Source: a virus
DNA: 37,775 nucleotides
Virus record (IMG/VR): IMGVR_UViG_3300044612_000772
Span: 1-37,775 of that record
Reading direction: 5' to 3' (one strand)
Shown: in pieces, positions 18,145 to 33,476 of the stretch
How the letters are laid out: every line of letters starts with the position of its first letter
How positions within the stretch are numbered: position 1 is the first letter of the stretch
Notes under the pieces: generated by a model
What the model was told of the DNA's origin: nothing
Database searches by the model: none
What the model saw: the letters and a program-made list of their open reading frames with translations, nothing else
Program-made: the position numbers and the translations under genes

Positions 18145-18200
18145 TGCTCGTATCCTCCTGCTAAGTCTCGCGACAGTCTCAATTGCCATCGCGTAGTGGG

Positions 18201-18229
18201 ATCATAGTGTGGTCATCGTCATAACACAA
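18201..18229 (-). promoter_or_regulatory. Sigma70-like promoter of the lone 212-aa gene
   Basis: Minus strand: -35 TTGTGT (18224-18229), 17-bp spacer, -10 TATGAT (18201-18206). The start site would be about 50 bp before ATG 18144. Three iterons abut the -35 box, well placed to control it. Confidence 0.5.
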
Positions 18230-18262
18230 GTTAGGATTACGTTAGGATTTTGTTAGGATAAA
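18230..18262. repeat. Three tandem 11-bp iterons
   Basis: GTTAGGATTAC, GTTAGGATTTT and GTTAGGATAAA follow each other without gaps; the first eight bases are identical. An 11-bp period puts all copies on the same face of the helix, as for cooperative protein binding at an operator or replication origin. The A-rich stretch after the third copy fits an unwinding region. Confidence 0.7.
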
Positions 18263-18278
18263 AAATCATTGCCCGCTA

Positions 18279-18513
18279 CGGTTTTTATATTGGGCCAACT
18301 GTGCATATATAGGTGTTGAGCGTTTCACGCATGCGAAAGCATGACGACCGCGAAACAAAGTTGAGAAGTTGTAACGCGGGCCACTTTTGCATCCGTGCAG
18401 GAGTGACCGCGTTTCACTGGCTTCGCTTATGCGATCAGTTGGCAACATGAAAAAACTTCCGGTTTTTTATTGTGCCAAGTGTGCATGTGTAAGCGTGAGC
18501 CATTCACGCATGC
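18279..18513 (+). repeat. Duplicated 55-bp control element (two imperfect copies)
   Basis: Copies at 18279-18334 and 18460-18513. Both start CGGTTTTT, share GCCAA-TGTGCAT in the middle and end TTCACGCATGC; the middle differs by substitutions and two short gaps. They lie between the iterons and the first early gene. A 9-bp GCGTTTCAC also recurs at 18320 and 18409, and a 7-bp hairpin (AGGAAGC/GCTTCCT, 18519-18537) follows the second copy. The two copies may be tandem early promoters or operators; no clear -35/-10 pair is seen. Confidence 0.55.
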
Positions 18514-18564
18514 CGAGTAGGAAGCGTGTTGCTTCCTGCGCATGCGGGCAGGTGTGGAGGTTTC

Positions 18565-18774
18565 ATGTACTGCGATCACAACTTCCAGTCCAAGAAGCAG
18601 CTGAAAGAAGCAGTTGCGCAGGGGATGGTCTTCGGACTGTTCCAGGCTGGGCCGTTTGGTGGTGGCGATTACCGAAACGGGACATACACCGTGGAGGGTC
18701 CGCACTACCCCCAGCCGCATAGGTGGTACGCACAGGTGACCATGAAAGATGGTCGGCCTGTGAAGGTGAAGTAA
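18565..18774 (+). CDS. Conserved small phage early protein, 69 aa
   Basis: ATG 18565 has GGAGG 5 nt upstream. The product (MYCDHNFQSKKQLKEAV, then GPFGGGDYRNGTYTVEGP, HYPQPHRWYAQV, ending KVK) belongs to a small family I remember as common in phages of many hosts, with a conserved EGPHYPxPHRWYA core. It probably forms a small beta-structured fold; function unknown. It is the first gene of the rightward early operon, after the control region. Confidence 0.8.
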   Translation: MYCDHNFQSKKQLKEAVAQGMVFGLFQAGPFGGGDYRNGTYTVEGPHYPQPHRWYAQVTMKDGRPVKVK

Positions 18775-18781
18775 TCGGGCC

Positions 18782-19129
18782 GCCGGGCAGGGGAGCAGTG
18801 ATCCCCTGTCCCGGCATCCGATCCTGGGCAGGTGGGCAGGGGTAGCGGCATCGCGTCCGCACTAAAGTCCCTGAATGCCTGCCTGCCTGGGATCAGGTGC
18901 CGTTTCTACGGTGTCCGAATAGCCCGCCATGGGCTGACTGTGCTGCCAATCCGATCCCGCTAGCGGGTGAGGTCCGGCGGCTGCATGGAATACGGACGGC
19001 GAGGGCCTGGGTCATGCCTATCAGCGGCGTGACAGGCTAACCCTCAACAACGCCCCCGGATAGTTCGGCCCGGGGGTCCATGCAGCAACCGCACAGCATG
19101 GCGGGCTATTCGGCTGCCGTTCGGTAGCC
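18782..19129 (+). ncRNA. Candidate large structured RNA, about 350 nt
   Basis: No gene fits this 370-bp gap, but it is full of nested complementarity. Domain 1: 12-bp stem 18782-18793/18803-18815 with one bulge. Domain 2: 19 continuous pairs, 18820-18838/18876-18894, four of them G-U, which fits RNA better than DNA. Domain 3: perfect 17-bp long-range stem 18915-18931/19097-19113, extended by 18908-18911/19117-19120, enclosing 18938-18943/19091-19096, 18980-18989/19077-19086, and hairpins 19011-19018/19026-19033 and 19053-19059/19070-19076. A 5-bp pairing 18972-18976/18993-18997 would make a pseudoknot. A competing hairpin 19112-19129 ends 6 nt before the next ribosome site. It could be a noncoding RNA, a long leader switch or a DNA origin structure. 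Confidence 0.6.
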
Positions 19130-19145
19130 ATTCACGGAGGTGCAT

Positions 19146-19958
19146 ATGGTCGCAAGATCACGCACCGCCAAGCCGCTCGGTGTCATTCTGCACCGGGGCA
19201 CGTCTGCTTTTGATGGCAGCCCCTACGTGGTGATCATGCCACTGGGGAAGTCTTCTAATAGCAAGACGGGCAAGATGCTCCAGACCTACATCATTAGGTC
19301 ACATGTGCATCCGGTTCAGGCGGTGCGTACCGGGGGTGACGTTGGTATCTGCAACGATTGCCCTATGCGTGGCCTAGTTGCTACGCAGAAACGCAGGTCT
19401 CGGAAGAAGAAGAACTTTCGGGCCTGCTATGTGAATGTCGGGCAGGGGCCTGCCATGGTGTACGGTGCGTTCAAACGTGGCCGTTACGTGGACTATGTCC
19501 CTGCTCTGCATGATCAGTACATCCGGGGTCGCAAGGTGCGTTTCGGCACCTACGGCGAGCCGGTGCTGATTCCGCTGGAGCTTGTGCGCCATCTGGCCAG
19601 TATTTCGTCCGGTTGGACGGGTTATACTCACCAGTGGTCAAACGTGCAGTATGCGGGCTACAAGCAGTTTCTCATGGCATCCGTCCATGGTCTTACCGGG
19701 CCTTGGTCATACGAGCATGCCAAGAGTCTCGGCTGGCGTACCTTCCGCACTATGCGTGGAGGCGAGCCGGTGGAGGGTGAACGGCTCTGTCCTGCCAGTA
19801 AGGAAGCCGGTCATCGGCTGTCCTGCCTGACGTGCAATTTGTGCGACGGTGCAGGCCGGCGGAAAGTCGGTCTGGAATTGGTGGACGTTTACATCCCCGG
19901 GCATGGTGGCAAGGCGATTATGTCTGCCGTCGCCAACCTGCCCATCCTTCAGGCGTGA
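19146..19958 (+). CDS. Conserved phage early protein with CxxC zinc site, 270 aa
   Basis: ATG 19146 has GGAGG 5 nt upstream; a GTG at 19140 overlaps that site and is unlikely. Conserved-looking blocks: MPLGKSSNSKTGKMLQTYII, DVGICNDCPMRG (paired Cys), KNFRACYVNVGQGP, VRFGTYGEP, SGWTGYTHQW, LGWRTFRTM, RLCPASKEAGHRLSCLTC. From memory this is a widely distributed phage family (DUF7227-like) of unknown role. The Cys clusters at both ends probably bind metal. It directly follows the structured region. Confidence 0.85.
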   Translation: MVARSRTAKPLGVILHRGTSAFDGSPYVVIMPLGKSSNSKTGKMLQTYIIRSHVHPVQAVRTGGDVGICNDCPMRGLVATQKRRSRKKKNFRACYVNVGQGPAMVYGAFKRGRYVDYVPALHDQYIRGRKVRFGTYGEPVLIPLELVRHLASISSGWTGYTHQWSNVQYAGYKQFLMASVHGLTGPWSYEHAKSLGWRTFRTMRGGEPVEGERLCPASKEAGHRLSCLTCNLCDGAGRRKVGLELVDVYIPGHGGKAIMSAVANLPILQA

Positions 19959-19966
19959 GGTGTATC

Positions 19967-25531: not shown

Positions 25532-25881
25532 TGGCACATACACCTGGGCCGTGGTCTGTGATGCCCACCCCGACCGACGTGCAGCACACCCACAAGATCA
25601 TGTACGACTGTGTGCAGGAGCGCCGCAGGATCGGTGCCGTGTGCGGCGTGTTCGCAAAGGATGACGGCGAGGCGACTGACAACGCCCGCCTCATCGCCGC
25701 TGCCCCGGAGTTGCTGGCTGCCTTGCAGTCGTTCATCGATCTTAGTGATGACGGCTCTCTGCATATCGACGGCAGCCCGGCTACGGAAGACCCCGCACTC
25801 ACTGCTGCCCGTGCAGCAATCGCCAAGGCCGAAGGTATCACCACGGAGGTAGATGATGGCAAGGAGCGATCATTGGACTGA
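25531..25881 (+). CDS. HTPGPW-type early protein, 116 aa
   Basis: Starts MAHTPGPWSVMPTPTD and includes DNARLIAAAPELLAALQSFI, the two hallmarks of a very common small phage and prophage protein family of unknown function. ATG 25531 overlaps the previous stop; end overlaps the next gene by 26 bp. Confidence 0.85.
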   Translation: MAHTPGPWSVMPTPTDVQHTHKIMYDCVQERRRIGAVCGVFAKDDGEATDNARLIAAAPELLAALQSFIDLSDDGSLHIDGSPATEDPALTAARAAIAKAEGITTEVDDGKERSLD

Positions 25882-25993
25882 CGAGACAGTGGACAAGGCG
25901 ATCCGCCTGCTTGTGCTGGCGGAGTCTTTGGCCCGACGACTAGAGCCTGATCTCTACCAGGAGATCAGGCTTTTTCTTTTGGAGGAAGCATGA
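25856..25993 (+). CDS. Small helical protein, 45 aa, carrying an internal terminator
   Basis: Read directly: ATG 25856 (ATG 25853 also in frame) after GGAGG, TGA at 25991-25993. Product MARSDHWTDETVDKAIRLLV then LARRLEPDLYQEIRLFLLEE is a clean two-helix sequence. Its last third is encoded by a strong rho-independent terminator (25944-25980), and its stop overlaps the next ATG. So the same bases serve as codons, terminator and, just after the T-run, the next ribosome site GGAGGAAGC. Confidence 0.6.
   Translation: MARSDHWTDETVDKAIRLLVLAESLARRLEPDLYQEIRLFLLEEA
25944..25980 (+). terminator. Rho-independent terminator inside the 45-aa gene
   Basis: Perfect 11-bp stem AGCCTGATCTC / GAGATCAGGCT (25944-25954 and 25961-25971), 6-nt loop, then TTTTTCTTTT. 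It would stop part of the early transcripts about two thirds of the way along the operon, so downstream genes depend on read-through or antitermination. It is the clearest terminator in the window. Confidence 0.8.
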
Positions 25994-26199
25994 TCCAAGA
26001 GTTCGACGGCACGGCCGAGCAGTTCGCTCGTATCACCCGGGAGTTGTATCCCAACTGTCGGATATGCGAGGACGATGACGGGCAGATCGTGATCTACACC
26101 GGAGCCGCTATGCAAATGGGCGGCGAGGTTGTATCATGGTTGCCTGATGATGAGGATGTGTACCAATCTTGGTGCGATAGAAACCCGGAGGTGATGTGA
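25990..26199 (+). CDS. Small early protein, 69 aa
   Basis: First gene after the intragenic terminator; GGAGGAAGC ribosome site right after the T-run. Begins MIQEFDGTAEQFARITRELY, then CRICEDDDGQIVIYTG. Small alpha-beta style; unknown. Confidence 0.65.
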   Translation: MIQEFDGTAEQFARITRELYPNCRICEDDDGQIVIYTGAAMQMGGEVVSWLPDDEDVYQSWCDRNPEVM

Positions 26200-28782: not shown

Positions 28783-28862
28783 TGTCCCCGTTAGCAGACT
28801 TCTTGGTGGGTGGCGCAATTGTGCTGGCCGTTCTGTTCTTCTCCTCATTGAGTGACGCATGA
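28782..28862 (+). CDS. Membrane microprotein, 26 aa
   Basis: Read directly: ATG 28782 in the previous stop, TGA at 28860-28862 overlapping the recombinase ATG (ATGA). MSPLADFLVGGAIVLAVLFF plus SSLSDA: one transmembrane helix and nothing else. Both ends are coupled, which supports real translation. Could be a small membrane effector or only a coupling relay. Confidence 0.55.
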   Translation: MSPLADFLVGGAIVLAVLFFSSLSDA

Positions 28863-29635
28863 TCTACGGATACTGCCGAGTCTCCACAGACGATCAGTCG
28901 ATCAGCCTGGATAACCAGCGGCAGGAACTGGAGGCCCATGCCGCCAAGCATGGCATCACCTTTGACCGTGTCTTCTGCGACGAGGATGTCTCTGGCAAGG
29001 TGCCCCTGCGTGACCGACCGCAAGGGAAAGTCATGTGGGATTTGCTGGACAAGGGTGACCTCGTCCTCGTCACCAAGCTGGACCGTGGCTGGCGTAACAC
29101 CGCCGATGCGGCCGGTACTCTGGCCACATGGCGGCAGTATGGGGTGAAGCTCTCTATCCTGGACTTCCCCATCGACACGGCCACGGACGAGGGGGAGATG
29201 ATGTTCTGCCAGTTCGCAAGCTGGGCACAGTACGAACGCAAGCGGATCGGCCGGCGAGTATCCGATGCCTTCGGCTACCTGCGGCGGAACGGCAAACCCT
29301 ACGCTGGCACCCGTCCCTTTGGCTGGGTGCGGGGGGCAGGTGAGTGGGTGCCGTGCGAACGCGAGCGTGTGCTAGGCAACCGGGTGGTGGACATGCGGGA
29401 CCGTGGCATGTCCTGGAATGCGATCACCCTCTGCCTTTGCCGCGAGAACGTACGCAAGCCGGCGGCGAAAAAGACTTCTTCTGGTTGGTATCACCCGCCC
29501 GATGTGCGGAGTTTGTGCCGCGCGGCGAGAGCCGGATATCCAGTTGTGCCGCAAGCGTCTTGGCTAGGCGCGCAGCCCGCAGGGACGCCACCCGCAGCGG
29601 TATCTCATGGTCCTCTGCCAGCGTCCGCAGGGTAG
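28859..29635 (+). CDS. Serine recombinase (resolvase/invertase type)
   Basis: Cuts and rejoins DNA through a covalent serine link. N-terminal resolvase domain: YCRVST with nucleophile Ser9, SGKVPLRDRPQG (about 45-56), LVTKLDRGWRN (Asp75-Arg76), and the dimerising helix FASWAQYERKRIGRRVSDA (119-137). A short C-terminal part (GKPYAGTRPFGWV; GMSWNAITLCLCRE) fits a helix-turn-helix. At 258 aa it is a resolvase-sized enzyme, not a large serine integrase. The last residues after about 225 are low-complexity and lie opposite the sigma-factor gene (212 bp antiparallel overlap). No att site was identified. Confidence 0.9.
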   Translation: MIYGYCRVSTDDQSISLDNQRQELEAHAAKHGITFDRVFCDEDVSGKVPLRDRPQGKVMWDLLDKGDLVLVTKLDRGWRNTADAAGTLATWRQYGVKLSILDFPIDTATDEGEMMFCQFASWAQYERKRIGRRVSDAFGYLRRNGKPYAGTRPFGWVRGAGEWVPCERERVLGNRVVDMRDRGMSWNAITLCLCRENVRKPAAKKTSSGWYHPPDVRSLCRAARAGYPVVPQASWLGAQPAGTPPAAVSHGPLPASAG

Positions 29636-32541: not shown

Positions 32542-33476
32542 AGGATTTTGGCTCCCGGTATGTAGATCGTGACCCCAGTTGGCGTGGCTTTGATCTCGTA
32601 ATGCATGAGCTTGTGGGGATCGACAAGCCCCCAGCCGTAGACATCGTCATGCCCTTCGGCGCCGGCGTCCTTGCACGTCTTAGAGAGGGCTTCGATCACA
32701 TGCTTGTGATCCACCTTCTCGCCTTCCTGCTTGGCTGACGAGATGTACAACGCAAGGACACCGGCTACGAACGGCGCTGCCATGCTGGTGCCACTGATCG
32801 TGGCGTACCCATTCGACAGCCATGTACTGGTGATGTCGGAACCCGGGGCGGCGACGACGATCTCCTTCCCGCGGGATGAGAACTCACACGCCTGCCCACT
32901 CTTATCGACCGCGCCGACACCGACCGTTTCACGGAACGCAGCCGGGTAGTTCACGGCACCGCCGTCATTGCCAGCGGCACAGACAACGACGATGCCCTGC
33001 TCGTAGGCTTCCTTAATCGCGGTATGCAGGTGATCGTCTGGCCTGGAGGAACCAAGGGACATGCTGATGATGTCCACTCCGATCTCCGTGGCGTAGCGGA
33101 CGGCCTCTGCCACTGCATCGTTGCTGCCCATGCCGGAGTGACCCAGCACTTTCAACGAGTGAATCTTGCACTTGGGCGCGATCCCCTTGGCGTTGCCCGT
33201 CGTAGCTCCGATGACGCCGGCACAGTGAGTGCCATGCCCAAGCGTGTCATAGATGTCCGAGTCGCTGGTGAAGTTCCGGTAGTCCACCACTACATCCTTC
33301 AGGGCGTAGTGCGGAGCGACACCGGAGTCCACCACTGCGACCACCACCCCCTCGCCCTGGCTCTGCTTCCACAGGGCAGGGACACCGTACGAGGACACAC
33401 CCCAATCCACTCCGTCGCTCTTGGCGGCGAGTGGATGGGCGGTCACGCGGTAAGGAGGGAGGTGAACGTAGCTCAC
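32538..33476 (-). CDS. Subtilisin-like serine protease (S8 family), GTG start
   Basis: All catalytic parts are present: VVDSGVAPH with Asp50, GHGTHCAGVIG with His81, the oxyanion Asn170 in CAAGNDGG, and ISGTSMAAPFVAGV with Ser231. The 312-aa length is that of a bare catalytic domain: there is no signal peptide and no evident I9 propeptide, so it may act inside the cell, be packaged in the virion, or leave with help of the membrane proteins. The GTG start overlaps the stop of the previous gene (GTGA). Phage subtilases are uncommon. Confidence 0.92.
   Translation of the reverse strand: MSYVHLPPYRVTAHPLAAKSDGVDWGVSSYGVPALWKQSQGEGVVVAVVDSGVAPHYALKDVVVDYRNFTSDSDIYDTLGHGTHCAGVIGATTGNAKGIAPKCKIHSLKVLGHSGMGSNDAVAEAVRYATEIGVDIISMSLGSSRPDDHLHTAIKEAYEQGIVVVCAAGNDGGAVNYPAAFRETVGVGAVDKSGQACEFSSRGKEIVVAAPGSDITSTWLSNGYATISGTSMAAPFVAGVLALYISSAKQEGEKVDHKHVIEALSKTCKDAGAEGHDDVYGWGLVDPHKLMHYEIKATPTGVTIYIPGAKIL

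Follow-up and report, generated by a model that had tools for sequence, protein, structure and literature searches.

In an uncultured phage, the gap separating the first early gene from the second holds a conserved, previously undescribed element that is real and is modular rather than one large RNA. By analogy with hammerhead ribozymes, we tentatively propose that this element (positions 18776-19129) may belong to an undescribed family of intercistronic RNAs that punctuate mRNA and work in a hammerhead-like way. The DNA analysed here, termed ‘the window’, is a virus sequence of 37,775 nucleotides (IMGVR_UViG_3300044612_000772) in which the gap (18775-19145) lies between two genes, referred to by position as the slot-1 and slot-2 genes. 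The features of this locus are as follows.

18520..18551, + strand: leader hairpin R, GGAAGC-GTGTT-GCTTCC then TGCGCATGCGGGCAG, just 5' of the slot-1 ribosome site
18565..18774, + strand: slot-1 gene, 69 aa (MYCDHNF..), stop codon TAA at 18772-18774
18776..18815, + strand: module e0, hairpin CCGGGCAGGGGA...TCCCCTGTCCCGG, directly after the stop TAA
18812..18902, + strand: module A, long imperfect hairpin with a variable apex, 19-pair core 18820-18838/18876-18894
18896..18916, + strand: junction hairpin A/B, GGTGCCGT-TTCT-ACGGTGTCC, mean pair probability 0.79
18909..19119, + strand: module B, branched interior, covarying closing stem 18915-18931/19097-19113
18938..19096, + strand: inner helices of module B, thermodynamic prediction
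19112..19129, + strand: hairpin C, GGCTGCC-GTTC-GGTAGCC, directly 5' of the ribosome site
19136..19140, + strand: ribosome binding site GGAGG of the slot-2 gene, read from the sequence
19146..19958, + strand: slot-2 gene, 270 aa, phrog_2554, weakly DUF7227-like, ATG at 19146

An earlier note on this DNA had placed a candidate structured RNA between these two genes, and that gene context (an upstream ORF at 18565-18774 and a 270-aa gene downstream) proved right. The slot-2 protein is assigned to phrog_2554 (E 1.5e-55), and its DUF7227 label is weak (14.8 bits in Pfam against a cut-off of 27). Searching IMG/VR with this 270-aa protein gave 32 close loci (75–99% identity), and DNA patterns taken from the element gave ∼20 additional loci, some of them with different neighbouring genes; about 45 related loci underlie the comparison of the element. 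Comparison with named phages returned no similar DNA (chance-level matches only), no relative of the portal protein and only distant relatives of the terminase; on the evidence of those two proteins the clade looks uncultured. The virus is an uncultured, freshwater-type virus infecting bacteria, belonging to a clade of podovirus-like phages that are likewise uncultured and roughly 60 kb in size, and since its relatives measure 57–63 kb, the window record (37.8 kb) is a fragment.

The gene strand of the gap (18775-19145; 371 nt) folded to a computed energy of −208.5 kcal/mol (z = −6.06), a value that none of 100 dinucleotide shuffles reached. When the whole window was scanned in 150-nt segments (step 75), the segment 18751-18900 ranked lowest of all 502 segments in energy as well as in z (−6.0), and the mean z over 45 homologous elements was −5.1. 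Two further segments of the + strand also folded with unusual strength (32626-32775, z −5.6; 25876-26025, z −4.5). All of the helices that the earlier note had drawn across 18782-19129 were recovered in place: a hairpin at 18782-18815 (13 pairs plus one bulge), a 19-pair helix at 18820-18838/18876-18894 with exactly four G-U pairs, and a perfect, ungapped 17-bp stem at 18915-18931/19097-19113 that encloses inner helices at 18938-18943/19091-19096, 18980-18989/19077-19086, 19011-19018/19026-19033 and 19053-19059/19070-19076, plus smaller ones. The junction hairpin at 18896-18916 competes with the basal pairs of both A and B.

Compensatory changes in homologues, which the earlier note had suggested looking for, were found in hairpin C, in the closing stem of B and in the lower stem of A. 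Across 20 distinct sequences of hairpin C, 98.1% of cells were paired (89.6% in shuffles), with 11 double-change cells against 2.1 in shuffles (0 of 500 shuffles). For the closing stem of B (CGGTGTCCGAATAGCC ... GGCTATTCGGCTGCCG), examined in 12 sequences, double changes affected 12 of 23 pairs and amounted to 28 cells against 5.1 in shuffles (0/500), while 93.1% of cells were paired as compared to 80.0% in shuffles and 37–48% in slid controls. Covariation in the lower stem of A was weaker yet still beyond shuffles, with true non-canonical positions at inner loops. The signal of selected RNA structure exceeds both the shuffled and the slid controls. Among the 51 predicted pairs of B family I as a whole, nine showed compensatory changes. 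The interior of the window's own B module has almost no homologues, and it shares only its outer helices with L021 and L022, in which a reading by eye shows a compensatory switch from C-G to G-C in helix 18938-18943/19091-19096; the deeper inner helices are predictions from folding energy. RNA structure and RNA-level selection in the element are well supported. A miniature inverted-repeat element (MITE) was rejected as the sole explanation, because the closing stems change by compensation and the interiors are themselves structured.

The minus strand of the gap also gave a low score (z −5.5), as expected of any inverted repeat. In inverted repeats that were found without favouring wobble pairs, G-T outnumbered A-C mismatches within helices by 77 to 27 (45 versus 20 distinct contexts), an excess that is partly explained by base composition (p 0.02–0.06 against composition). 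The gene strand was the more stable of the two strands in 44 of 45 loci. Together these strand data favour RNA folding on the gene strand, not decisively, and lend support (moderate in the case of the G-T bias) to the claim that the structured RNA lies on the mRNA strand. They also bear on the idea that the region is an origin of replication or another structural DNA site with no role as RNA. Strong inverted repeats close to a divergent early promoter region would suit such a site; stem-conserving changes accompanied by strand-biased wobble pairs would be unexpected of it, as would the strict orientation relative to the genes, the fusion to a stop codon and the close spacing to a ribosome site described below, and we regard this explanation as very improbable.

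Comparison of the loci revealed that the element strings together hairpin modules (e0, A and B, then hairpin C) whose closing helices are conserved and whose apical domains are freely swapped. Module e0 precedes A in the window and in L002, L003, L011, L013, L143 and L155. The base of module A is conserved (stop codon plus CGG ... CCGTT) and its apex falls into several unrelated types; a covariance model placed the module in 24 of 25 relative records with one good gene-strand site each, its extra matches being on the mirror strand, in neighbouring modules or weak. The interiors of B fall into at least five unrelated types, exchanged between near-identical phages. About half of the loci contain A and C only (about 70–110 nt), and the minimal forms in L012 and L153 are plain imperfect hairpins. 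At the other extreme, additional modules D and E lie between A and B in L011, L083 and L098, L155 carries a tandem pair of B modules, and in L136 an ORF is placed between A and B. This L136 insert, a short acidic ORF (MDYMSEYDWWVDPD..), lies on the minus strand immediately upstream of B, between GCCGTT repeats. The single large RNA of fixed architecture that was originally envisaged therefore gives way to a set of exchangeable modules, with many relatives retaining A and C only. The element is present as a single copy per genome: no repeats of it were found elsewhere in the window, and no convincing second copies were found in the genomes of relatives (weak extra matches include G017:41112 and G008:7122). 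Module A was not found at 23 of the loci with distant relatives of the slot-2 gene (40–48% identity).

The proposal that the RNA was undescribed held up, in that Rfam 15 gave no match at the gathering cut-off anywhere in the window, and a relaxed search of 18190-19150 (E<=5) returned only sub-threshold chance matches. The element is thus an RNA family that is supported by covariation and has no Rfam entry. ARAGORN detected no tRNA, no promoter was recognised in the element region, and intrinsic terminators (a GC-rich hairpin plus a U run) numbered 0 in 18150-19250 against 1.0 in shuffles. A possible copy in a cellular genome was dismissed as chance, as the sole pattern match (L163, a Nitrospiraceae MAG) lay inside a protein-coding gene.

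Neither neighbouring gene of the chain is homologous across the loci. The first module begins at the slot-1 stop codon in 24 of 25 loci checked (in L003 it is off by 15 nt), and the chain ends just before the slot-2 ribosome site. The slot-1 ORFs that abut the first module belong to at least nine unrelated families. The slot-1 position in relatives (e.g. L002-L033) is a hot spot of small accessory early phage ORFs. The slot-2 gene also varies: some loci have a DUF7227-like/phrog_2554 gene, some a GP88-family gene of either of two types and some a different gene, and the tie to a DUF7227-like gene that the earlier note had suggested does not hold. The element accordingly sits as a punctuation element would: intercistronic, between varying flanking genes, and abutting both a stop codon and a ribosome site. 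In the near-identical phage L002, DNA homology to the window covers 18520-18551, 18773-18934 and 19105-19962; it is lost through the slot-1 gene and again through the interior of B, and is regained at the stop codon. These blocks indicate that exchange of genes and of RNA domains breaks at structured elements.

In another explanation the modules would act as DNA, as an array of attC-like hairpins at which gene cassettes are exchanged, perhaps by means of a phage serine recombinase. The boxes at the ends of integron attC sites are R'' (RYYYAAC) and R' (GTTRRRY). The coincidence of the window–L002 breakpoints with the modules, and the L136 ORF that stands between two modules with GCCGTT repeats on both sides, are consistent with this idea. 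The window also encodes a small serine recombinase.

28859..29635, + strand: small serine recombinase, PF00239, 258 aa

Homologues of this enzyme occur in 19 of 20 relatives, and it is the sole recombinase common to nearly all of them; no tyrosine recombinase was found in the window record, and the matches in relatives are only distant, present in 14 of 21 records and absent from seven. The module ends read CGG... and ...CCGTT followed by letters that do not fit RRRY, so that no R-box (GTTRRRY) was seen there by eye. Furthermore, the modules stand at one place per genome rather than being spread as an array, exchange also takes place within stems rather than at a single site, and the wobble pairs favour the gene strand. 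Sites of the attC type and CALINs of integrons also occur in phages (PMC9892861), and the element resembles them in its conserved hairpin base, its variable apex and its place directly after an exchangeable ORF; it differs from them in its ends, in the lack of a genome-wide array, in its gene-strand wobble bias and in having several tandem modules without ORFs. On balance we consider a recombination element of this kind improbable.

A closer parallel is found within the same clade. A type II hammerhead consists of the core GAAAC – stem III – GUC – stem I – CUGAUGA, closed by stem II. Eight related loci contain complete ribozymes of this type at junctions of the same early operon, either ahead of the slot-1 gene or, where there are two such genes, between them (0-based starts L003:4419, L004:4332, L014:4481, L016:1501, L018:4130, L019:4367, L032:4367 and L141:12680). 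The sequence of their stem III varies while its complementarity is kept. As with module A, four of the eight begin on or beside the stop codon that closes the preceding ORF; a ribosome site follows shortly after them. The L019 hammerhead passes the Rfam gathering score, and the others reach 27–35 bits where scored. The window record itself has no match to the type II hammerhead family (RF02276), and none was found by motif either.

The element occupies the same kind of niche as these hammerheads. Hammerheads flanking single genes whose identity differs were described from prophages by Perreault et al. (2011), and the role proposed for them is the cutting of long transcripts into gene-length mRNAs (PMC3088659). 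Like the type II hammerheads of phages, the window element is an intercistronic structured RNA that flanks single variable genes (PMC3088659), with its 5' edge at a stop codon and its 3' edge before a ribosome site, in the same operon. Unlike them, it has no hammerhead core (GAAA/CUGAUGA) and no Rfam score, and it is built of tandem modules.

If the element does punctuate the early mRNA, as we tentatively propose, it would be transcribed within that mRNA and would fold from the stop codon of the first gene onwards into the stem domains e0, A and B, ending in hairpin C. The stems would then provide a protected 3' end for the mRNA of the upstream gene, and hairpin C a structured 5' end for the downstream mRNA. 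Those ends could arise when the RNA cuts itself, although a host nuclease is the likelier agent; module A is unlikely to self-cleave, since its minimal forms in L012 and L153 are plain hairpins. Cleavage, end protection and an effect on expression are what we infer for the element from these parallels. Coupling to translation is a likely extra feature: hairpin C uses a strand that also forms the base of A (or B), and a ribosome positioned on the stop codon would tip the balance towards hairpin C.

That shared strand also underlies a different explanation, in which the element would be a leader switch of the second gene. Hairpin C cannot form together with the base of A or B, and the state, and with it downstream expression, would be set by ribosomes ending translation of the first gene, by a protein or by RNA polymerase (put-like antitermination). 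The hairpin that competes with the closing stem (19112-19129), noted earlier, is indeed present and is itself conserved by covariation. Its 5' arm is shared with the base of B, or with that of A in loci lacking B, and that strand has been conserved in each of its two pairings. In the computed ensemble of the window this hairpin dominates (pair probability about 0.93) and the last base pairs of the B stem, which it displaces, fall to 0.06–0.08. Across 15 loci without B, the computed ensemble spans states from closed A base to closed hairpin C; holding open the 15 nt after the stop codon brought hairpin C to a computed 0.88–1.00 in 14 of the 15 (0.48 in L015). The hairpin is also only a short distance from the ribosome site. 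Against a switch, the balance of the two states differs between loci, and the downstream gene is inconstant, which makes autoregulation by one protein unlikely. Autoregulation by the DUF7227-like protein, considered separately, is weakened for that same variability of the slot-2 gene. We view a leader switch as possible, though unlikely. While still nascent, the HK022 put RNA suppresses pausing and termination as early phage genes are transcribed (PMC9378689). Like put, the window element is a structured RNA of a phage early transcript that would act, if at all, in cis; unlike put, it is preceded by a gene, and the number of its modules and their apices vary.

Action in trans would require a non-coding RNA cut from the early mRNA, for example one directed against a host nuclease or defence, with apices that evolve fast. 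Sequence conservation at unpaired positions in the predicted fold of B family I is in keeping with such an RNA, as are the rapid exchange of domains and the single copy near the early region. The element has no promoter or terminator of its own that we could recognise, the interiors differ among B families, and many phages retain only A and C; we rate a trans-acting RNA as improbable too, slightly more so than the attC-like array. As a large structured RNA with no known protein product, the element recalls GOLLD, ROOL and OLE (PMC12286853), which are longer and conserved in overall architecture, unlike the modular, variable window element with its lack of Rfam similarity.

The modules might also form a new class of exchangeable, structured RNA or DNA cassettes that are self-processing or active in recombination, that stand where relatives in the clade use hammerheads, and whose bases serve as hot spots for trading single early genes; we find this doubtful. 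What the comparison does establish is a phage operon in which folded RNA modules, beside true hammerhead ribozymes, make up the gene junctions and mosaic gene exchange breaks at the modules. The operon offers a test case for the purpose of ribozymes in phage operons, and for the question of why the breaks in phage mosaics often fall precisely on gene borders.

Upstream of the slot-1 gene, the divergent early region contains two copies of a promoter-like repeat (GGTTTTT.ATTG.GCCAA.TGTGCAT.T.TA.G; 18275-18315 and 18465-18505, ∼190 bp apart), at which no sigma-70 match was scored. The segment 18376-18525, in this divergent promoter/leader region before the slot-1 gene, gave the second strongest fold (z −5.8). 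The adjoining leader hairpin R is 100% identical in L002 and L003 despite a different adjoining slot-1 gene, and in most loci ‘GCATGCGGGCAG’ is conserved while the complementary arms of the hairpin vary. The kind of place that hairpin R occupies is taken in some relatives by a type II hammerhead ribozyme.
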